From positions 1 to 37,318 of the IMG/VR virus record IMGVR_UViG_3300033155_000907: a DNA stretch of 37,318 nucleotides; one strand, written 5' to 3'. The notes beneath the pieces are model-generated. The model saw only the letters and a list, made by a program, of their open reading frames with translations. It was not told where the DNA came from and searched no databases. Made by a program: the position numbers and the translations under genes. This document shows, piece by piece, positions 3,728 to 22,986 of the stretch (within the stretch, counting starts at the first letter, position 1; the number at the start of each line of letters is the position of its first letter). The stretch comes from a virus.

Positions 3728-3755
3728 ATTATACCCAGGGTTCCCGCTTTGTCAA
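3728..3755 (-). promoter_or_regulatory. Promoter P2 (perfect sigma-70 consensus) with operator-like dyad
   Basis: On the minus strand there is TTGACA (3750-3755), a 16-bp spacer and TATAAT (3728-3733). The stop codon of the upstream TOPRIM gene is part of the -35 box. A perfect inverted repeat, CCTGGG-N8-CCCAGG, brackets the -10, an arrangement typical of a repressor site. Transcription would begin near 3721, about 27 bases before the HTH gene. Confidence 0.8.
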
Positions 3756-4666
3756 GGGCGCGTGTCGCCATCAGCCAGTGATTCGATGACGTCGCCCCAG
3801 TTGGCAGAAACATCATTGAGCGATTCCCGTTCGTGTTCTTGACGCACTTCCATGTCACGCCATGCGTCCATGTCACAGAATGACTTGATGGTATCTTGAA
3901 TCAGCGTGTCGAGTACCGTTGGCTCTAACGCATCAAGCTCCCAGGAGTCGGACCCGTACTCGCCAATGTATCCCGCCGCCCTGGAGTCTGTCAGCTTTGC
4001 CGGGTTGGGTGGTGGTCCGTACTCTTCGATTTGATCCATGTTGAGCGCAATGCGCTTGACTTCCATTGGCATACCGAACAACCCCAGTCTGTCGTTGATG
4101 TCTCGGGTCATGTCTATGCCGGACGGGTCATGGTCGCCAAGGTGGATCACGACCGGGGTCTGGCCGTCATTGTTGTAGCCCGAAAAACGCTGTGCCGCCC
4201 TCCACATCTCCGACTGGCTGGTGTACCCTTTACACGCGAAACACTCAACGTCAAGCGGCTCACATGCCCTCAGGATGACGCCCTCAAGGGCTTGCTTTTC
4301 AACCCACACTTCGACCCGGTACTCCTGGTCCTGCCATTTGTCGATCGCGTAACTTCGCGCCGCGCTCCTGATGATGTCGGACGGGGAACTCCAGTGTGAC
4401 ATTGTGTTGAGACTACGACCACGATCCTCTATGGCTTCCCAGTCGATGAGGCCAGCCAGCCGGCCATCGTTGACGATGCCGCCAAGCCTCTTGTATTCGC
4501 TTTGCTTGTTCGGGATGAGATCCGCCGCCACAAACCTGTAATAGAGTTGCCGCAACGTCAGAGACAGCCCCTGTTCTGTGTAGTCATCTATGACAGCGTT
4601 GGCGTGCGCGATGATTGACAGACTTCCCGCCTTGAAATTTTTCGGCACATAACATATCTTTGCCAT
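3752..4666 (-). CDS. TOPRIM protein resembling Spo11 / topoisomerase VI subunit A
   Basis: The 304-aa protein has LTLRQLYYRF at residues 36-45, which resembles the catalytic-Tyr helix of the winged-helix domain of Spo11/TopoVI-A (Arg then Tyr-Tyr). WVEKQALEG at 121-129 gives the TOPRIM Glu (E123). ACKGYTS at 144-150 recalls the KGYP loop. LGDHDPSGID at 176-185 gives the TOPRIM Asp pair (D178, D180). Order and spacing fit TopoVI-A. No GHKL ATPase (TopoVI-B) is encoded, so strand passage is unlikely alone. It may nick or cut DNA, or act with a host partner. The ribosome site GGAAGGAG lies upstream of 4666. The last residues overlap promoter P2. Homologues are often left as hypothetical phage proteins. 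Confidence 0.65.
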   Translation of the reverse strand: MAKICYVPKNFKAGSLSIIAHANAVIDDYTEQGLSLTLRQLYYRFVAADLIPNKQSEYKRLGGIVNDGRLAGLIDWEAIEDRGRSLNTMSHWSSPSDIIRSAARSYAIDKWQDQEYRVEVWVEKQALEGVILRACEPLDVECFACKGYTSQSEMWRAAQRFSGYNNDGQTPVVIHLGDHDPSGIDMTRDINDRLGLFGMPMEVKRIALNMDQIEEYGPPPNPAKLTDSRAAGYIGEYGSDSWELDALEPTVLDTLIQDTIKSFCDMDAWRDMEVRQEHERESLNDVSANWGDVIESLADGDTRP

Positions 4667-14783: not shown

Positions 14784-14973
14784 CTTCTTCCACCTGTATT
14801 ATGTCGCCCACTATAACGTCCTCCTCCGAATCGATGATAATGGTCGTCTCGTTCTCATACACCTTGATCGTGCCCCACACAGTTGTGAGCAACGCCGGCG
14901 CACCCTCGGTATAACCACCCTGGCCGTCATCTGTTCGGACAGCCCTGTAAACTGCAAGGGGTTGCGTCATCAT
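14776..14973 (-). CDS. Small head-tail joining protein
   Basis: The 65-aa product has RTDDGQGGYTEG and TVWGTIKVYE, the hallmark pair of head closure proteins (phage head-tail joining family). It is shorter than the usual ~110 aa, so it may be a minimal form. The start at 14973 overlaps the adaptor gene stop by ATGA. A longer frame to 15225 lies inside the adaptor gene and is not credible. Confidence 0.7.
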   Translation of the reverse strand: MMTQPLAVYRAVRTDDGQGGYTEGAPALLTTVWGTIKVYENETTIIIDSEEDVIVGDIIQVEEDV

Positions 14974-15515
14974 GAGAACACGCCATTGAACCTGTACGCA
15001 CGGAGCTTCTTGGCCTCGTCGCTCTGAAGCAGATCGCCCCACTGTTCCGTAAAGCCGGCGACCCTTTCCGTCTCGACGCCGCCGCGCTTGTCGTATGCTC
15101 GGTAAATCAACGACAGTAATACCGACTTCATGCCGGCCGGAATTGTGGATGTGGTATAGCCGGCTGTGTATACGACAGTGAACAGATCCGTGCCCGGACT
15201 CCACATGCCGCCATTGATAAACCATATGCGATGCTTGTTGTACCGCCAGAGCGTCGAGGACACATCACCGTCCGTCAGGTCGCGGTTCGTCACGCTGGCG
15301 ACCGTTACGATCGGGTGCCAGTTGGGCCGCAAGTTGTGAAGGCCACCGCTGATGTTTTCCGTTATCGTCGGGAGCGCGCCGTCCTCAAGCTTGACGCCGC
15401 AAAAGTCTCCGACCCACTCCTCGGCGCCATCGATCAGGATCTGAATGACGTTGTCTTCCTTGTCGTGGCTGATCTTCAAGAACTCCTTCGCCAGGGCCAG
15501 GCTAACTATTGACAT
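14970..15515 (-). CDS. Head-tail connector / adaptor (HK97 gp6-like)
   Basis: The 181-aa protein has an N-terminal SLALAKEFLKISHDKEDNVI followed by a helix with AEEWVGDFCG. This is the typical opening of the gp6-like adaptor that forms a ring under the portal. A beta-rich insert (about 60-115) and C-terminal helices (LLSLIYRAYDKRGG) complete it. GGAGGG lies before the ATG. It begins the connector block directly after the modification island. Confidence 0.88.
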   Translation of the reverse strand: MSIVSLALAKEFLKISHDKEDNVIQILIDGAEEWVGDFCGVKLEDGALPTITENISGGLHNLRPNWHPIVTVASVTNRDLTDGDVSSTLWRYNKHRIWFINGGMWSPGTDLFTVVYTAGYTTSTIPAGMKSVLLSLIYRAYDKRGGVETERVAGFTEQWGDLLQSDEAKKLRAYRFNGVFS

Positions 15516-15810
15516 CTTCTGTTCCCTCCGTTGTCTTCCGCCTTGTATACTTGCGCCGCGTCTTCTTTTTGACGGTTGCCTTCCCTCTTCCGAGGGTCCG
15601 CTTCGGCGCTATCTTCACTAGTGGTCCGACCAGATCCACCTGGCCGTTGATGATCATCTTCTTGGCTTTCGATTCTTTCATGATGTCCTCGTCTCCAGTG
15701 CGCCGGCGCAGGATCTCATTCTCGCCACCAAGCCATCCGTCAATCTTCCAGCGTACGATGACCTTCTTGGCGCTGGGACCCATGATCGGTTTAACCTTAT
15801 GCTTTGACAT
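15502..15810 (-). CDS. Hypothetical basic protein between the modification island and connectors
   Basis: The 102-aa protein has a middle holding a beta-like stretch (VIVRWKIDGWLGGENEIL). The C-terminal 25 residues are almost all Lys/Arg/Thr (KKKTRRKYTRRKTTEG) and could bind nucleic acid or an acidic surface. The start at 15810 overlaps the upstream stop by one base with AAGGGGGG before it. No family is recognised. By position it could be a virion protein or an accessory to the island. Confidence 0.55.
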   Translation of the reverse strand: MSKHKVKPIMGPSAKKVIVRWKIDGWLGGENEILRRRTGDEDIMKESKAKKMIINGQVDLVGPLVKIAPKRTLGRGKATVKKKTRRKYTRRKTTEGTEDVNS

Positions 15811-16364
15811 CAGTCCCCCCTTACAGAATACAGCCAGATCCCACGGCACCCTTCAACCCACGTGCCGCCGCCTATGTCCTCAAGCGCCTTGGTGACACCC
15901 TCGAGGTTGGTGGCATCATGCACGCCGACCATGACCTTGGCCACTCTCATTGCCTGGATGACGTCAGCGCGTGCGCCTTCATAGCTGTGATCGCCATCGA
16001 TCCACACAAGATCGACCGATCGATCTTGCAATCCCTCGAGGTACTTAACGGAGTCAGACGTATGCAACTGGACGTGCTTGGTCAACCCTGTCTTGGCCAG
16101 CCGTTCGGTTACGTGCTTCACCGATCCACCACCGCCGCCATGTTTGTGGGACCAGTTATCAACCGAGTGGATCTGACCCGTGCCGTTGTGCTTAACACCC
16201 AACGCCAACCATGTGGTCATGTGACCAGCCCTGACACCAACTTCAATGATGTGCTTGGGGTTGAGCATCCGGACGACCGAATACATAAAGAGCTTTTCCG
16301 GCAAGCTACTACCGGCTGACTTCGGGTTCTCTCTGTCGAATTTAATCAGTTGATCGATCACCAT
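15810..16364 (-). CDS. SAM-dependent methyltransferase (Methyltransf_24 type)
   Basis: The 184-aa protein has motif I IIEVGVRAGHMTTWLA at about 39-54, an acidic post-I site (HSVDNW) and LVWIDGDHSYEGARAD at about 119-134, as in class I methyltransferases of the Methyltransf_24 group acting on sugars. It likely O-methylates a glycan. Its start overlaps the upstream GT-methyltransferase by 7 bases and its end the next gene by 1. It resembles the methyltransferase at 17674-18168, so the two are probably paralogues with different positional specificity (inference). Confidence 0.8.
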   Translation of the reverse strand: MVIDQLIKFDRENPKSAGSSLPEKLFMYSVVRMLNPKHIIEVGVRAGHMTTWLALGVKHNGTGQIHSVDNWSHKHGGGGGSVKHVTERLAKTGLTKHVQLHTSDSVKYLEGLQDRSVDLVWIDGDHSYEGARADVIQAMRVAKVMVGVHDATNLEGVTKALEDIGGGTWVEGCRGIWLYSVRGD

Positions 16365-17677
16365 TCAATAACCCCACATATATGATTCTTTGCACCGGGA
16401 ACAAACCGGATCTTCCCGAACTGGCCAAATGACTTTTTGATGTCAGCTTCATCCGCCCACCACGCAATGTGCCCGTCGTTCCTGAAGTGGCACGGCTTGA
16501 AGCCCTCTCGCGGCACGCTGAACACCAGGCAATCGACCGCGACCTTCTTCAACATGGCAACGATCTCTTCCGGGTGGTAGAAGTGTTCCAGCACTTGCAG
16601 GGCGACGGCTGTCTTGAACCCACCGTGAAAGATGTTGACGGCTTCCCTTATGTCCGCGTGTAAGAACGTCCGCTTCGGGTATCTGCGCCGGGCCTCGGCC
16701 ACCATGTCGCCGGAGATCTCCACGCCTGTGTAGTGGGTCCTCTTTGGTAGGTACTCAACAAATGATCCGAAGGCACTTCCAAGCTCGAGAACCGGCCCCA
16801 CACATTCAGCCGCCAGGGCCTTGAACTCATCGGGGCGCTTCCTGTCATCCGTCTTGCTGAGATACTTCTGACCCTTTTCGTTCCACCAAGGCTCTGTATT
16901 GACCGGCGTCATTGTTGGCGGACGCAACCCGAAGGCGTCCATCGCCCCCTGGTTGACCTCTCGGCCGATGTGGTTCTCGGCGTGCTTGTTGCCGTGAAAC
17001 TTGCTCGTGTTCATGCCGCTCATCGTGCCGCAATAGATCCCGTCAGGTAGTGGGACCGCCGTGGCGTGCGACGCAAGCTTCTGGTGTCTGTGGTTGAAGT
17101 GCCACTTCATCCAGTACGCTTGGAGCGCCGCCTTGTTCTTCAGTGCTGATTTCGGGATGACGTACACGTGGAAAGACGTACAGCCTTCCGACTTCCACTG
17201 ATACAGTTTGTTGGCCTCGATGTCGTAGCAATAGCCGTTCCGGGTGACAAAGACCTGGCCATCCTTGAGCTTGTACTTGTCCAGTTCACGCCACAGATCC
17301 GACCGCCACATGTCGTCAGAGTCACAGAACGCCAGGAGTAGATAGTCGGCGTCCTTATACTTCAAGCAGAGCCGGCCGAACAATGCGCTGTTCTCCAGCC
17401 AAAAGTCGTCATCGTTTATAACGAACGAGCCGCCAGCCTTGACGATCGCTTTCTTTGTCTCGGCCGCCATGTCATTACACTCCGACCGGAACGACGTGAT
17501 CCAGTCCACCTGATGTCCGTTGGCCCTCATCGCCTCAATGCTGCCAATGGTAAATTGTTCCATAACGGGCAACCGAGCATTCCACCACTCGGCGTTCCCG
17601 ATCGTCTTCTCGTATCGCCAGGAGTCGAACCCCTCAAAGAGGTCGAACTTTGTAAAGATTGCCCGGGCTATATTCAT
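16358..17677 (-). CDS. Glycosyltransferase-methyltransferase fusion protein
   Basis: The 439-aa protein has two parts. Residues about 1-250 look like a rhamnosyltransferase-like GT-A domain: an R-x-W-Y opening, NDDDFWL, and the metal-binding DSDDMW preceded by a hydrophobic strand. Residues about 290-439 are a class I methyltransferase with LELGSAFGSFVEYL (motif I), GVEISGDMV and ALQVLEHFYHPEE. One polypeptide could thus add a sugar and methylate it or its neighbour. It overlaps both neighbours (4 and 7 bases). Substrates are unknown. Confidence 0.78.
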   Translation of the reverse strand: MNIARAIFTKFDLFEGFDSWRYEKTIGNAEWWNARLPVMEQFTIGSIEAMRANGHQVDWITSFRSECNDMAAETKKAIVKAGGSFVINDDDFWLENSALFGRLCLKYKDADYLLLAFCDSDDMWRSDLWRELDKYKLKDGQVFVTRNGYCYDIEANKLYQWKSEGCTSFHVYVIPKSALKNKAALQAYWMKWHFNHRHQKLASHATAVPLPDGIYCGTMSGMNTSKFHGNKHAENHIGREVNQGAMDAFGLRPPTMTPVNTEPWWNEKGQKYLSKTDDRKRPDEFKALAAECVGPVLELGSAFGSFVEYLPKRTHYTGVEISGDMVAEARRRYPKRTFLHADIREAVNIFHGGFKTAVALQVLEHFYHPEEIVAMLKKVAVDCLVFSVPREGFKPCHFRNDGHIAWWADEADIKKSFGQFGKIRFVPGAKNHICGVIEW

Positions 17678-18168
17678 TTCTTGCGCCTCATTACAGCGGT
17701 ACGGTGTTCCTTTTCCACCATCTCATAGAACCCTTCCGCACAGAACTCATTGACCGCACGCCTCACCGGCTTGCAGTTCGGGCCAGGTGCGTGATCGTGT
17801 GCCATGATCAGGCCGGTGTCAGTCACCAACAGCTTGGCCACTTGCAGATCGATGGAACACCATTTGAAGCTATGGTCACCATCAACGAACACCGCGTCGA
17901 ATGCGTGCGTCCAATCCCACTGGTTTAAGAACTCCACGGACGTGGCAATGTACAGGGCCTGGTTATCCTGGGCGTTCTTGCGCCAGTATTCGATACTGCC
18001 AGACGCGGCCATGTGACCATCCCTGAAGGGGTCAACGCTTATGACCTCAAGGTCTGGCCTCTTGGTAGCCCAGTACGACGCCGTAACGCCGTGGTGCGTG
18101 CCGATCTCAAGCACGCTCCCATCCTCTGGCAACAGGGAAAGAATCCAGTCCCTTTCCCTGTCATTCAT
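17674..18168 (-). CDS. SAM-dependent methyltransferase (Methyltransf_24 type)
   Basis: The 164-aa protein has motif I SVLEIGTHHGVTASYWA, a strand ending in ISVDPF, and DAVFVDGDHSFKWCSIDL, then HDHAPG, as in Methyltransf_24 enzymes that modify sugars or surface antigens. The ATG at 18168 is chosen although its ribosome site is weak. An in-frame TTG at 18192 lies inside the sulfotransferase gene. It sits between the sulfotransferase and the GT-methyltransferase fusion and shares the DGDHS motif with the enzyme at 15810-16364. Confidence 0.8.
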   Translation of the reverse strand: MNDRERDWILSLLPEDGSVLEIGTHHGVTASYWATKRPDLEVISVDPFRDGHMAASGSIEYWRKNAQDNQALYIATSVEFLNQWDWTHAFDAVFVDGDHSFKWCSIDLQVAKLLVTDTGLIMAHDHAPGPNCKPVRRAVNEFCAEGFYEMVEKEHRTAVMRRKK

Positions 18169-18175
18169 TTTGGAC

Positions 18176-18772
18176 TTACCAACCAAGGCCAAGTTCCTTC
18201 ATTACGCTGTCGTCGATCATCTCCTTGACGAACTCCAGAAGCCCGTCGCCATATGCCTTCATGTACTTTTTCTTGAGATAGAAGCCGGCCTTCATGGGCT
18301 TGTTGGTTTGCAGCCCAGTCCGTGACAGCTGGTGGTCATATACATACCCGTGCGCCTTCGCCTTTGGCTTGGCCGTCAACTTCAGATCCTTGGCAACGCC
18401 CTTGACCACCTTCTCGGGGCTGGCCAGCATCGCCTCGTAGTTGACGAAAACCATCTTGCTCCGGCCGGTCTTGACGTCCAACCAGTGCCGGTGCATGGCG
18501 TTCCAGTGTTCGATCATAAGACCACGCTTCACGTAATGGGCGAACTTGCACGGCTTGCCCTCATACTTCCACATGGAGATCAGCCAGGACAGGGGATGCT
18601 TGAAGACAACCACTGACGCGACGTGCTTGCCAAGCTTCTCTTTGACCTGGTAGCGGCCATGCTTCCAGCCACCCTTGTTGATCAGGATCTCAGCCTGGAA
18701 GTTTCCACCAAGCAACAACCTCATGTAGTTGGTGCCCGACCTATGCAGTCCGAATTGTTTGACTTGCTTCAT
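18176..18772 (-). CDS. PAPS-dependent sulfotransferase-like protein
   Basis: The 198-aa protein has FGLHRSGTNYMRLLL at residues 7-21, which matches the 5'-phosphosulfate-binding loop of carbohydrate sulfotransferases (RSGT). VVVFKHPLSWLISMWKY at 54-70 matches the strand-loop-helix with the 3'-phosphate-binding Ser. It is shorter than many sulfotransferases (usually 250-300 aa), with a basic C-terminal half. It would move sulfate from PAPS to an acceptor, probably the glycan built by its neighbours. The APS kinase two genes upstream can supply PAPS, which supports the call. The start overlaps the GT gene by 32 bases. Confidence 0.75.
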   Translation of the reverse strand: MKQVKQFGLHRSGTNYMRLLLGGNFQAEILINKGGWKHGRYQVKEKLGKHVASVVVFKHPLSWLISMWKYEGKPCKFAHYVKRGLMIEHWNAMHRHWLDVKTGRSKMVFVNYEAMLASPEKVVKGVAKDLKLTAKPKAKAHGYVYDHQLSRTGLQTNKPMKAGFYLKKKYMKAYGDGLLEFVKEMIDDSVMKELGLGW

Positions 18773-20777
18773 CTTTCAACCTCTCAATCGCTCTGGTTAC
18801 TATTTCGGGAATGTCCCAGTCCACCCGGGCAATGATCCCGTCACCGCAATCACCTTCCTTGCCGTTCCATTTATGCCAGGCCGATTGACGCTTCTTGCGG
18901 CCTGGTGTATCGCCGTCTCTGTTTCGATAGAACTCGTGCTTCGCCTTCATCACCGCCGGTGACAGTGCGTGTCCGACGTGATAGATGAGACAGCTTGGCA
19001 TCTCCTTTGCAATCATCCCGTTGTTGGGACGATGCAGTCTGTTGTCTTGAGAGTCTACGACAGTGTGGTGTTTCTTCCACCTGAAGCTTGAGCGCCACCA
19101 TGACCACCTGTAGTGCGGGCAAACAGATCCGCCTGACTTTATCTTCTTGCCCCAACGTAGGCCAGCCATCTTGGCGTTGTCATATACCCAATACTCAGCG
19201 CCGTGCCATAGGTTGACCCACCTGGGCGACGTGAATGGATACCCGGCCTCGACCCACTTATCCAGGCCGATCCAGATCTCATCCGCGTCGAGTACCAAGT
19301 GATAGTTGCCGGACATCTTGTCGGTACAGAACTCTCTCATCTGTTGTTTGTCAGCCCATTCCTTCCGGACCTCGAGTGTAATCTTGTTGTCAGGATCTGG
19401 AAACGCCTTGATCAATTCCAGGGACCCATCTGGCGGCACGCTCTTGTTGAGCTTCGTTGGTCCGTATGCGATCCGGATCTCATCCACGTAAGGGTAAACG
19501 CTCTCGAGTGATTCCGGTACGAAACCCCAATAACATATCATGTGACAGCTAACTGACTTACGCTTCATACTATGGAACGGCATCTTCTCGAGCTTATCCG
19601 CCATGCCCTCCATGCCGTGCGTAATTTGGATCCTTTTTACAACAGCGTCCGGCACGGCCGCCTTGGGCTTCGTCGCTATTTCTCTTACCTTTTGGGTAAA
19701 GGCTTTCCCGTCATCCCACGGCACGTATATGAGATCATCTCCATACGCTTCTCGGAGGACCGGCAGGTCGTACACCACACAGTTGGTACCGCTGGCCAAT
19801 GCTTCACCGGGCACCATGCCAAAGCCCTCGAACTTACTTGGCGCCAGCACGATGTGCGCGGCCTTCATGCAACCAAACTTTGTGGCGTCGCTATGGCCTT
19901 CCATTGCAACGAGTTTGTGCTTGTCGGTATTGGCCGGCGCGTGCGGAAGCTTCCCGAACACCACCAAATCGAACGGGACATCGAGGCCCCAGATCGTCTT
20001 GACGACCAAGTCGCCATTCTTGTACCCGGTCGGCCTGGACGAGAAGACAGCGAAGGGCCGCTTGTTGACCCGGACCTTGGCATCCTCTTCCAGTGCAAAC
20101 GTATTGACAGCCGGGTTCAGAACCTCGCCCGGCGTATCCTTCCCGACCCACTCGAGAAGGTGCTGCATTGAGATGTTACTGTTAGCAATATAGAAGTCCG
20201 CCCCCTGGAAGACAGCTTTATCATTGGCAAGGCGGCCGGCGTATTTCTTCTCATACTTGGCCACCCAGTTTGGTGTCTCGAAATTGAAGCATACGAACGG
20301 GATCTTCGGGAAGCGCTTCTTGAACTTCAACGCCTTCTTCCCGAGGTCCTGCTTGCTGTCGGTTACGACAAGGTCCAAGTCTGGCGGAATGGGATTGCTT
20401 CCTTCAATCAGTACAGTTAGATTCTTCTCTTTCGGATAATCCTTGCGCCAGACCGGGTTCCTATTCGTTATCAGAAAGACCTCGGCGCCTTGTTTCGCCA
20501 GGGTCCATGCGTATTGATACATGTGTATGCGTCCGCCTGAATAACCAGCTGATGTGGTGAGCCATATGCCGATCCTCTTGGTGTATGCGTAAGGCTTCGC
20601 CGGCTGTCCGATCTCGGCCCGCTCCCATGAGAACTCGCGCTCAGTAATAAGGCCGGAACTCAACAGCTTGGCAGCGTCATGACGGTTGAGGATGTCAACC
20701 AGGGTCCCCACTTCGTGGGCCTTCTTCTGGCCACGCTGATCGGGCCATGAGAATGGCTTGACAACCCTATACCACAT
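18741..20777 (-). CDS. Two-domain glycosyltransferase (GT4-like plus GT2-like)
   Basis: The 678-aa protein has residues about 65-400 as a GT-B fold GT4-type enzyme: a SAGYSGGRIHMYQYAWTLA start loop, then EGFGMVPGEALASGTN, which carries the donor-binding Glu pair. Residues about 405-600 look like a GT-A domain with the metal-binding LVLDADEIW. The start at 20777 (MWYRVV) overlaps the APS kinase gene by 11 bases. The frame extends to 20867 but only inside that gene. It is probably a bifunctional enzyme that adds two sugars, cytoplasmic because no signal is seen. Confidence 0.82.
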   Translation of the reverse strand: MWYRVVKPFSWPDQRGQKKAHEVGTLVDILNRHDAAKLLSSGLITEREFSWERAEIGQPAKPYAYTKRIGIWLTTSAGYSGGRIHMYQYAWTLAKQGAEVFLITNRNPVWRKDYPKEKNLTVLIEGSNPIPPDLDLVVTDSKQDLGKKALKFKKRFPKIPFVCFNFETPNWVAKYEKKYAGRLANDKAVFQGADFYIANSNISMQHLLEWVGKDTPGEVLNPAVNTFALEEDAKVRVNKRPFAVFSSRPTGYKNGDLVVKTIWGLDVPFDLVVFGKLPHAPANTDKHKLVAMEGHSDATKFGCMKAAHIVLAPSKFEGFGMVPGEALASGTNCVVYDLPVLREAYGDDLIYVPWDDGKAFTQKVREIATKPKAAVPDAVVKRIQITHGMEGMADKLEKMPFHSMKRKSVSCHMICYWGFVPESLESVYPYVDEIRIAYGPTKLNKSVPPDGSLELIKAFPDPDNKITLEVRKEWADKQQMREFCTDKMSGNYHLVLDADEIWIGLDKWVEAGYPFTSPRWVNLWHGAEYWVYDNAKMAGLRWGKKIKSGGSVCPHYRWSWWRSSFRWKKHHTVVDSQDNRLHRPNNGMIAKEMPSCLIYHVGHALSPAVMKAKHEFYRNRDGDTPGRKKRQSAWHKWNGKEGDCGDGIIARVDWDIPEIVTRAIERLKDEASQTIRTA

Positions 20778-21519
20778 TGGCCGCCTCTCTGATCTTGGTT
20801 GCGCTGATGGCTTCCGTTTCCTCATCCAGTCGGATCTGACGAATGCCCCATCCGACCTTGCGGCCATAACACACCTCTGTAATGTCGGGGATCTTCACGA
20901 CCTCGACACGCTTCCCGAACGCTGCCCTGACCATCCTGGCCCGTTCGTTGTAGGTGTACGGGTTACTCGAGGAAAGCTTTGTATCTCTGATAGCAACGAG
21001 GACCGGCTTGCCTTCTGCCAGCACATGGTTGATCAGCGTCTTGTGGCCGTCATGCAACGGCTGATATCGACCGATGAACATGCTGAACTCTTGATGACTT
21101 ACAGCGTCGTTGATTTTGCACGCTGACTCCTCCGCCGTGACCTCATCGTGGTCGATCGTCAGGTACCGCGTATCGTCCGCGTCGGGTTCTTCATAGAAGT
21201 GACCTTCACGTTCTGGGACGGTCCGCTTCAGATATACCCAGGCTGGGTGGCATATGTCGTTGATCAGTTCTCTTGTCTCTTTGATCGGTGCAATGACTGA
21301 CACGATCACGTTGGATTGTTTGGCCATCTGTTCGGCCAGGCGTGCCACTCTCAGGTTGTGTTCCGTTCTATCTTCCCGTGAAAAGCCCGCGCCTAATGAT
21401 ATGGATTCCCGCATCTCATCACCGTCGAGTATGATGGCGTCAAGGTATTCGGAAAGTTCCTTTGCGACAGTTGTCTTGCCAGCACCTGATGGGCCGGTGA
21501 GCCATACGATCTTTGTCAT
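20767..21519 (-). CDS. APS kinase fused to a nucleotidyltransferase
   Basis: The 250-aa protein has residues 1-140 as an APS kinase-like domain: Walker A GPSGAGKT (9-16), LDGDEMRES (31-39), GFSREDRTEHNLRVARLAE (45-63) and IAPIKETRE (76-84). These are the motifs that bind adenylyl sulfate. Residues about 146-250 are a small HxGH-superfamily nucleotidyltransferase: GRYQPLHDGH (150-159) and the closing ISATKIR (238-244). The kinase would make PAPS. The second domain is too small to be a normal ATP sulfurylase and looks like NMN adenylyl- or cytidylyltransferases, so its substrate is open. It heads the modification island, with AGGAGA nine bases upstream. Confidence 0.82.
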   Translation of the reverse strand: MTKIVWLTGPSGAGKTTVAKELSEYLDAIILDGDEMRESISLGAGFSREDRTEHNLRVARLAEQMAKQSNVIVSVIAPIKETRELINDICHPAWVYLKRTVPEREGHFYEEPDADDTRYLTIDHDEVTAEESACKINDAVSHQEFSMFIGRYQPLHDGHKTLINHVLAEGKPVLVAIRDTKLSSSNPYTYNERARMVRAAFGKRVEVVKIPDITEVCYGRKVGWGIRQIRLDEETEAISATKIREAANVV

Positions 21520-21594: not shown

Positions 21595-22986
21595 CTAGCT
21601 TTCGTCTCCGTCCAGAATCGACATTGCTCTCGGCTGAAGCAGACGACCACCAGCCACGAGGAAGAACTTGAACGCGACCAAGTTGTCCCTGAACTTGTAG
21701 TCATTGCTTCTCGCAATGGTGATTTCCTCTTCCATCGCCAGGACGTATTCCCTGGGATTTCCGAAGATGATGTCGCCACTCGTTCCAACGACGGGCTGGT
21801 TCGGTGCCGTGCTTACGACATACGGGTACCCGATCAGTCTGTCGGCGGGAGCGCCGGCAACAGAGGCCATGAGCAACGGACGGCCTTCATTGTCGAACAG
21901 CCCTTCGAGTGCCTGGAGGACACTGTCCTCGAGCGTGAAGATCGCGCCACTACGGTGGGCGGGCTTCACCAGGTGCTTGAGGTTGATCAGATCCTGATAC
22001 GTCACGGTGCCAGCCGTGAGTCTAGCTATGGACCTGATACCGGCCTCGTTGATGATGCCGGCCGGCTGGCCTGCACCACTACCACGGATGATCGCCCTGT
22101 CTAGCGTGTACGACAGCGCTCCGCGACCGAGGTTAGAAAGAAGCTGCACGATATCGATCGCTGACCTGGAGATCAGGCGCTCGGAGACTTCCGTGTAGCC
22201 ACAAAGTTCGTGCGTCTGAATCTGCTTCTGTGAGAAGGAAGGTTCTGTCTCGGGCTTTTCTGCGCCCTCACCCTTCCACTGGAAGACAATACCACCGTAC
22301 TCGTTGTCGTCGGTCTGATCAAGCACCGGCCAATCGATGGTTCCCGTTGGTGACGGGGTAACGGTTACCCTGTCCAACAGAGCCGCCATGTCGGGCGGCA
22401 ACGCCAGAAGCTGTTCCCTGAAGTCAGGCGGGACCAGGTTCTGTGCGTCACTCGGGTTGGTGTTCGGCGCGGCTGGTGAAGACGTGGAGTACATCGTCTT
22501 TCCGAACATCTTAGCATACCGCTTGCCCAGAAGGGCACAAGCGAGTATGTCAGGCAGCTTGACCGAGTCTTTTCCTTCGCCCTTGAGGATGGCGGCGGAC
22601 GTCGGTGTAACTGCTTTTCTCTCCTCGCCGGAGAGTTGGGTGCCCTGGACATACTTGCCCACAATGGCAACCTGGGCGCGAATATCTGCGCCGTGATCCT
22701 TCGCCGCTGCCGGAACAACTACGGGGATCACCTTGCCATCATCATCGAGCTGCGAGAGGTCGTCGATCTCATCGACAAGCTTCTTTGCAGCGACCAACGC
22801 CTTGGCGTCTTCCGCCTTGGCCTTCAGTCCTTCGAACGTCTCCCTCTCAGCGTCCAGGAGGGTCTTGGCGGCCTCGAATGCGGCGTCGTCCGTCGCGTCC
22901 TTCGCCGTCTCCATCTTGCCCTGGAGGTCAGTCATTACCTCGACTGACTTGGCCATGAGGGCCATCAACTTCTTTAGGTCGAACAT
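21595..22986 (-). CDS. Major capsid protein, HK97 fold, with N-terminal scaffold (delta) domain
   Basis: The 463-aa protein has residues about 1-110 as a charged Lys/Glu/Ala-rich coiled coil, the delta domain that serves as scaffold and is cut by the prohead protease. Residues about 175-460 are the HK97 core, with NLVPPDFREQLL, IDWPVLDQTDD, a C-terminal IIFGNPREYVLAMEEEITI strand set and VAFKFFLVAGGRL. The order protease, then coat is canonical. AGGAG precedes the ATG at 22986. Placement of the glycan island right after it makes it a candidate target for modification (inference). Confidence 0.92.
   Translation of the reverse strand: MFDLKKLMALMAKSVEVMTDLQGKMETAKDATDDAAFEAAKTLLDAERETFEGLKAKAEDAKALVAAKKLVDEIDDLSQLDDDGKVIPVVVPAAAKDHGADIRAQVAIVGKYVQGTQLSGEERKAVTPTSAAILKGEGKDSVKLPDILACALLGKRYAKMFGKTMYSTSSPAAPNTNPSDAQNLVPPDFREQLLALPPDMAALLDRVTVTPSPTGTIDWPVLDQTDDNEYGGIVFQWKGEGAEKPETEPSFSQKQIQTHELCGYTEVSERLISRSAIDIVQLLSNLGRGALSYTLDRAIIRGSGAGQPAGIINEAGIRSIARLTAGTVTYQDLINLKHLVKPAHRSGAIFTLEDSVLQALEGLFDNEGRPLLMASVAGAPADRLIGYPYVVSTAPNQPVVGTSGDIIFGNPREYVLAMEEEITIARSNDYKFRDNLVAFKFFLVAGGRLLQPRAMSILDGDES

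Follow-up and report, generated by a model that had tools for sequence, protein, structure and literature searches.

Introduction

The closest described counterparts of the gene considered here are the bifunctional 3'-phosphoadenosine 5'-phosphosulfate (PAPS) synthases, namely human PAPSS1/2 and the bacterial fusions of the ATP sulfurylase Sat with adenosine 5'-phosphosulfate (APS) kinase, which hold an APS kinase and a nucleotidyltransferase of the HxGH class in one protein; the ATP sulfurylase of human PAPSS uses an HNGH motif (PMC11697783). Here we describe a locus in the virus record IMGVR_UViG_3300033155_000907, all 37,318 bp of which were analysed and are referred to below as the window. 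Six minus-strand open reading frames (ORFs; 15810-16364, 16358-17677, 17674-18192, 18176-18772, 18741-20867 and 20767-21519), each overlapping or abutting its neighbour, form what we call the island, and ORF 20767-21519 encodes a predicted APS kinase followed by an HxGH nucleotidyltransferase (NTase). The kinase is N-terminal in this protein as it is in PAPSS, but the phage nucleotidyltransferase is a NadM-derived domain of ~110 amino acids (aa) without the Sat/MET3 domain (PF01747), and the whole protein is 250 aa long against ~600 aa. In the explanation that we favour with moderate confidence, the NTase is a minimal ATP sulfurylase of NadM descent and ORF 20767-21519 a 250-aa PAPS synthase feeding a sulfotransferase that acts on a methylated glycan.

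Three other systems invite comparison. The island shares phage-encoded glycosyltransferases with the virion glycosylation systems of mycobacteriophages (Che8 gp110, Corndog gp38, Myrna), but capsid and tail-tube targets are known there, and the island has a sulfation module, whereas the mycobacteriophage glycosylation paper mentions no sulfotransferase (PMC12363180). Haloarchaeal sulfotransferase cassettes resemble the island in having a sulfotransferase gene beside an APS kinase-NTase fusion, but they are cellular and their APS kinase is full-length; an mBio paper on N-glycan sulfation in Halobacterium salinarum makes no mention of PAPS supply (PMC11980604). PHROG 10255, a family annotated as "kinase" (Casjensviridae, Stenotrophomonas phage DLP6), matches the window protein over its full length (9e-29) and has the same kinase-NTase architecture, but differs from it in a divergent kinase motif (DADEVR/NGDAVR..WDF) and in lying among genes of DNA metabolism, with NADAR or phosphatase genes nearby. 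Our literature search covered the open-licence content of PubMed Central, with subscription journals and preprints outside that scope, and returned no description of an enzyme such as this NTase and nothing relevant on a phage sulfotransferase with APS kinase or on self-contained PAPS supply for virion decoration.

Results

The evidence for the proposed pathway concerns three features:

20767..21519, minus strand: bifunctional kinase-nucleotidyltransferase, 250 aa, with a predicted N-terminal APS kinase (residues 1-~137) and a C-terminal HxGH NTase (~140-250); proposed compact PAPS synthase (Pfam, AlphaFold2, fold match)
20770..21102, minus strand: NTase domain, ~110 aa, with GRYQPLHDGH ... 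CYGRKVGWG ... ISATKIR; proposed minimal ATP sulfurylase (alignment, PDB profile match, haloarchaeal distribution)
18176..18772, minus strand: putative divergent sulfotransferase, 198 aa, with 5'-phosphosulfate-binding (5'-PSB) loop GLHRSGTNY, 3'-phosphate-binding (3'-PB) strand VVVFKHPLSWLISMW and NYEAMLASPE (subthreshold Pfam, iterated profile)

An APS kinase domain had been named in an earlier reading made from the letters alone (the sequence-only reading), and Pfam, motifs and modelled fold all agree with it. Pfam APS_kinase matches ORF 20767-21519 at 1e-20 (74.7 bits against a cut-off of 21.1), with residues 3-91 covering profile positions 3-97 of 152 only, and the P-loop GPSGAGKT, DGDEMR (DGDxxR) and GFSREDR (GFSxxDR) are all present. 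The AlphaFold2 model of the protein has a predicted local distance difference test score (pLDDT) of 93.8. Its top PDB matches are all APS kinases, with VIA Z 19.7 and a root-mean-square deviation of 1.6 over 140 residues for 2ofw, the APS kinase domain of human PAPSS1, against Z 17.5 for gluconate kinases and <14 for adenylate kinases; the matches listed cover the kinase half only, and the ATP sulfurylase chains among them aligned through their kinase domains. The N-terminal half is thus modelled as an APS kinase, with APS as its presumed substrate.

The C-terminal half matches the cytidylyltransferase-like Pfam family CTP_transf_like at 6e-10, in agreement with the nucleotidyltransferase domain of the same reading, which had treated it as a separate domain without a function. 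Its nearest PDB relative is the NadM-type nicotinamide mononucleotide (NMN) adenylyltransferase (NMNAT) MJ0541 (profile E 1e-12), with which it shares the HxGH fold class and motifs, and hhalign aligns the NTase family with haloarchaeal NMNATs at 98.5% probability. The family differs from enzymes of the MJ0541 type in being shorter (the HxGH and IS[AG]TxxR motifs are 87-102 residues apart, against 119 in a haloarchaeal NMNAT), in having a conserved YGRxVG where haloarchaeal NMNATs read VWVSHV (that segment and the region following it), and in its linkage to APS kinase and sulfotransferase. The NTase lacks most of the NMN-binding part, which is consistent with a small second substrate, and its HxGH motif is comparable to the HNGH of the PAPSS ATP sulfurylase.

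The NadM-type NMNATs being its nearest sequence relatives, the NTase might instead be an NMN adenylyltransferase or another enzyme of nicotinamide adenine dinucleotide (NAD) metabolism fused to a kinase, with sulfation drawing on host APS and the NTase itself serving nucleotide metabolism or counter-defence. The Casjensviridae relative, which adjoins a NADAR-domain gene, would fit such a role. We nevertheless consider it very unlikely, given that most of the NMN-binding region is gone, that haloarchaeal genomes with the NTase also have an NMNAT of their own, and that the NTase is found together with APS kinase and sulfotransferases.

If the NTase makes APS, genomes that carry it should need no other ATP sulfurylase. 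A first look found 16 NTase-bearing genomes without Sat, one of which had CysD above the cut-off. Among 145 haloarchaeal genomes, a true NTase was present in five (189-258 bits, well apart from the housekeeping NMNATs at 26-42 bits) and an APS kinase in eight. Our working prediction, made before the searches for Sat and CysD, was that Sat or CysDN would be present in the three kinase genomes lacking the NTase and absent from the five that carry it. Sat was found in exactly the three NTase-free genomes, as predicted, and CysD above the cut-off in none of the eight.

Among 391 haloarchaeal genomes sampled, 28 carried an APS kinase. In nine genomes a stand-alone kinase lies beside Sat (one of these, G353, also carries a fusion), while 18 have the APS kinase-NTase fusion only, and in these neither Sat nor CysD nor AprA was detected. 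AprA was detected in none of 20 haloarchaea tested and in all five SAR11 controls. A sulfotransferase is present in the fetched flank of every fusion locus (20/20) and of three of the nine Sat loci, and Pfam confirms the flank sulfotransferases at six fusion loci and three Sat loci. The haloarchaeal fusions keep the canonical APS kinase lid. In haloarchaeal cassettes the NTase therefore stands where Sat would, and it is because this same domain occupies the place of the normal enzyme that we propose it to be an ATP sulfurylase. The test draws its force from genomes in which a sulfotransferase accompanies a canonical APS kinase and the NTase is the one APS source detected, and not from the p-value for NTase/Sat complementarity (Fisher p 2e-5), which overstates independence. 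Directly after the haloarchaeal fusion we also observed a gene of the YqcI/YcgG family (L186:722-1474, Pfam 9e-75; L187:722-1501; L188:726-1472).

A profile scan of viral contigs returned 559 relatives of the NTase, and 80 of these loci were fetched for neighbourhood analysis. At most of these loci the NTase has an APS-kinase-like domain fused to it (in either order), adjacent to it or no more than a few genes away. Sulfotransferases rank first in a Pfam tally of 150 neighbour genes (12 + 10 members in two overlapping families), followed by glycosyltransferases and methyltransferases. By profile, sulfotransferases account for 20 of the 200 genes lying up to three genes from the module and for two of 145 at a distance of at least seven genes (p 0.001), although that profile was trained partly on those neighbour genes, which makes the Pfam tally the cleaner figure. 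At one locus (L007) an APS kinase-sulfotransferase fusion lies beside a methyltransferase-NTase fusion.

The putative sulfotransferase of the island, ORF 18176-18772, falls under the Pfam cut-offs (Sulfotransfer_3 at 22.4 bits against 27, 1.7e-4; Sulfotransfer_1 at 15.9 against 22). A sulfotransferase profile built from neighbours of related kinase-NTase modules, and iterated without the window sequence, recovers it independently at 7e-9 as the only matching ORF of the window. In the profile alignment the 5'-PSB loop GLHRSGTNY, the 3'-PB strand VVVFKHPLSW and NYEAMLASPE (NYE..L..P) are aligned and in order. An hhalign comparison with five sulfotransferases gave 2.2%, the query being the single sequence, and the only relative recovered is an identical copy in a sibling contig. 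The profile match supports the view that ORF 18176-18772, sulfotransferase-like by Pfam, is a divergent PAPS-dependent sulfotransferase, as the sequence-only reading had suspected. The same reading held that sulfate donor and user are both encoded, and this is well supported, since the kinase models as an APS kinase and related modules are enriched beside sulfotransferases.

The sibling contig L011 (positions 300-400), from the same metagenome, lacks 49 bp relative to the window. The missing stretch includes the stop codon of the GT4 glycosyltransferase gene and sulfotransferase residues 1-16, among them the 5'-PSB loop, so that a single fused frame results. The deletion lies at the contig end, with identity to the window of 97% before it and 100% after it, and both strain variation and an assembly chimera are possible explanations.

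The remaining genes of the island and its immediate flanks are as follows:

18741..20867, minus strand: 708-aa protein with a GT4-family (GT-B) glycosyltransferase at residues ~110-420 (Pfam Glycos_transf_1 2.7e-10; PHROG 2170 glycosyltransferase 4e-16)
17674..18192, minus strand: S-adenosylmethionine (SAM)-dependent methyltransferase (Methyltransf_24), 172 aa (Pfam 1.2e-11)
16358..17677, minus strand: 439-aa protein with a C-terminal SAM methyltransferase (Pfam Methyltransf_25 2.3e-10)
15810..16364, minus strand: SAM-dependent methyltransferase (Methyltransf_24), 184 aa (Pfam 2.3e-20)
21595..22986, minus strand: major capsid (major head) protein, upstream flank (PHROG 10, 8e-59)
15502..15849: small ORF without identification, between the island and the adaptor
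14970..15515, minus strand: head-tail adaptor, downstream flank (PHROG 442, 5e-25)

All three methyltransferase domains expected from the letters were recovered, two as Methyltransf_24 and one as Methyltransf_25. Of the two or three glycosyltransferase domains proposed alongside them, the GT4 domain of ORF 18741-20867 stands, while a second in the C-terminus of that protein and a third in the N-terminus of ORF 16358-17677 are motifs only. The C-terminal ~270 aa of the former contain a DADE motif that is GT2-like by eye and the N-terminal ~270 aa of the latter a glycosyltransferase-like CDSDD, also by eye; neither region has a Pfam match even at E 10 or a convincing PDB relative, and we do not regard the GT2-like second domain or the third domain as established.

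The island is enclosed by genes of the head-tail operon: those for terminase, portal, minor head, protease and major head lie 5' of it in transcription order, and the small ORF, the head-tail adaptor and the genes for tail completion, major tail and tape measure proteins lie 3' of it. The arrangement of six overlapping or abutting genes between coat protein and head-tail adaptor, as first described from the letters, is borne out by the ORF coordinates and the PHROG matches of the flanks, with the qualification that the small ORF precedes the adaptor, and the share of about 15% of a 37-kb genome is likewise correct (5.7 of 37.3 kb). The record is probably a complete genome, because it has a 114-bp terminal direct repeat. 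There is no break in base composition at the island (54-57% guanine plus cytosine), and a simple scan for promoters gave no promoter-like site on the minus strand inside it. PADLOC, run on four island proteins, gave just a weak mads_2 match to one methyltransferase. Elsewhere in the window, a non-exhaustive scan of ~35 ORFs found no polymerase, and positions 3752-4666 strongly match the phage DNA topoisomerase family PHROG 6247 (383 bits).

The location of the island also bears on the acceptor. Sugars of the host surface are a common substrate of phage-encoded enzymes that modify glycans, and a sulfated glycan on the host cell surface, serving receptor masking or superinfection exclusion, is a serious if less probable option than a glycan on the virion. 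This alternative competes for the target only and overlaps with our confidence in the pathway as a whole; the island identifies no acceptor, and the data do not separate virion from host-surface sugars. Against it stand the position of the genes inside the head-tail operon, between those for capsid and adaptor, and the precedent of mycobacteriophages, which encode glycosyltransferases that add glycans to the capsid and tail-tube proteins of the phage itself (PMC12363180).

Some relatives of the module lie in quite different surroundings. Pelagibacteraceae loci (L108, L115, L121, L134, L168) and others from SAR11 have a divergent kinase-NTase pair with the motif NADEVRK..WDFSxEGR, whose neighbours are methyltransferase, M24 peptidase, halogenase-like and enoyl-CoA hydratase genes. 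The SAR11 genomes tested have no Sat or CysD; they do have AprA, another possible source of APS, and in view of this and of the divergent kinase we rejected SAR11 as support for the APS argument. In Casjensviridae (L013:6565-7741, also L014 and L015) the gene immediately before a divergent kinase-NTase fusion is annotated as a NADAR-domain protein in Bhz60, which suggests a different nucleotide-related role for that fusion. A gene annotated as DNA topoisomerase is found close by in Casjensviridae with the divergent fusion.

Discussion

We propose that the island is a cassette for glycan decoration that includes a sulfate-activation module of its own. The C-terminal HxGH NTase of ORF 20767-21519 would convert ATP and sulfate to APS, and the N-terminal APS kinase, recognisable by fold and motifs, would phosphorylate APS at the 3' position to give PAPS. 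From family and linkage, the sulfotransferase encoded by ORF 18176-18772 is expected to use PAPS to sulfate a glycan that the GT4 glycosyltransferase of ORF 18741-20867 assembles, and some or all of the three methyltransferases would methylate the same glycan. A sulfated, methylated glycan is a fair inference for the product. Since the genes lie within the head-tail operon, the virion of the phage itself is the most likely bearer of the acceptor glycan, although this is the weakest step of the proposal.

Several observations weigh against this explanation. At the level of sequence the NTase is not Sat-like, hhalign against three haloarchaeal Sat sequences giving 0.4% probability, and we rejected a relationship of that kind; the literature searched contains no assay of any enzyme of the NTase family. 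In the window kinase and its close relatives, the canonical lid KGLYKKARxGEIxxFTGID is replaced by a short EREGHFYEEP. The AlphaFold2 model of ORF 18176-18772 has a pLDDT of 48.8 and no meaningful PDB match, the underlying alignment being shallow and pieced together from distant sulfotransferases, and among the GenBank phages in our collection there is no relative of this sulfotransferase, of the GT4 protein (18741-20867) or of the 439-aa protein. As to distribution, the fused and stand-alone haloarchaeal kinases form two clades, and their complementarity with Sat does not amount to many independent events; Sat is uncommon in the haloarchaeal genomes sampled, the completeness of these genomes is not stated, and CysD-like genes occur in some non-archaeal NTase genomes. 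One haloarchaeal genome (G227, locus L235) departs from the pattern: it has a lone divergent APS kinase and lacks Sat, CysD and AprA, and the flank fetched around the kinase contains no NTase. Lastly, in the divergent branch (SAR11, Casjensviridae, phage DLP6) the NTase accompanies a kinase without the DGD motif in non-sulfation neighbourhoods, and given this branch the substrate of the NTase may vary across the family.

The short lid and the divergent branch, which suggests other substrates, would also fit a module that makes a different 3'-phospho-nucleotide donor. The NTase would then activate some other small anion, the APS-kinase-like domain would add the 3' phosphate, and the sulfotransferase-like enzyme would transfer the group, in a manner comparable to O-methyl phosphoramidate in Campylobacter. 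The cytidine diphosphoramidate kinase of Campylobacter is an APS kinase homologue that adds a 3' phosphate, while the nucleotidyltransferase of the Campylobacter pathway is of a different type. Methyltransferases and glycosyltransferases accompany the module, as this alternative would also have it, and cytidine diphosphoramidate kinase figures among the references of PMC10919079 as an enzyme of capsule phosphoramidate synthesis. However, the same NTase is fused in haloarchaea to full-length canonical APS kinases beside sulfotransferases recognised at the Pfam level. No glutamine kinase, phosphoglutamine cytidylyltransferase or amidohydrolase domain is present among the six island genes, the rest of the genome having been partly scanned. 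On this evidence we judge a donor other than PAPS to be unlikely, and prefer the minimal ATP sulfurylase.

With marginally less confidence than we place in the pathway itself, we think it probable that the ~110-aa NTase represents a third class of ATP sulfurylase, of NadM-like origin and with no sequence relationship to Sat/MET3 or CysDN, that is common in phages and occurs also in haloarchaea and several candidate phyla, and that forms with APS kinase unusually small PAPS synthases for sulfation rather than sulfate assimilation. If this is true, a common unnamed phage domain gains a function, and the origin of PAPS is explained for those haloarchaea that have sulfotransferases but no detected ATP sulfurylase. 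Phages would then carry a self-contained pathway of sulfate activation and sulfation for glycan decoration, and a module of its own would free the phage from the sulfate-activation state of its host.

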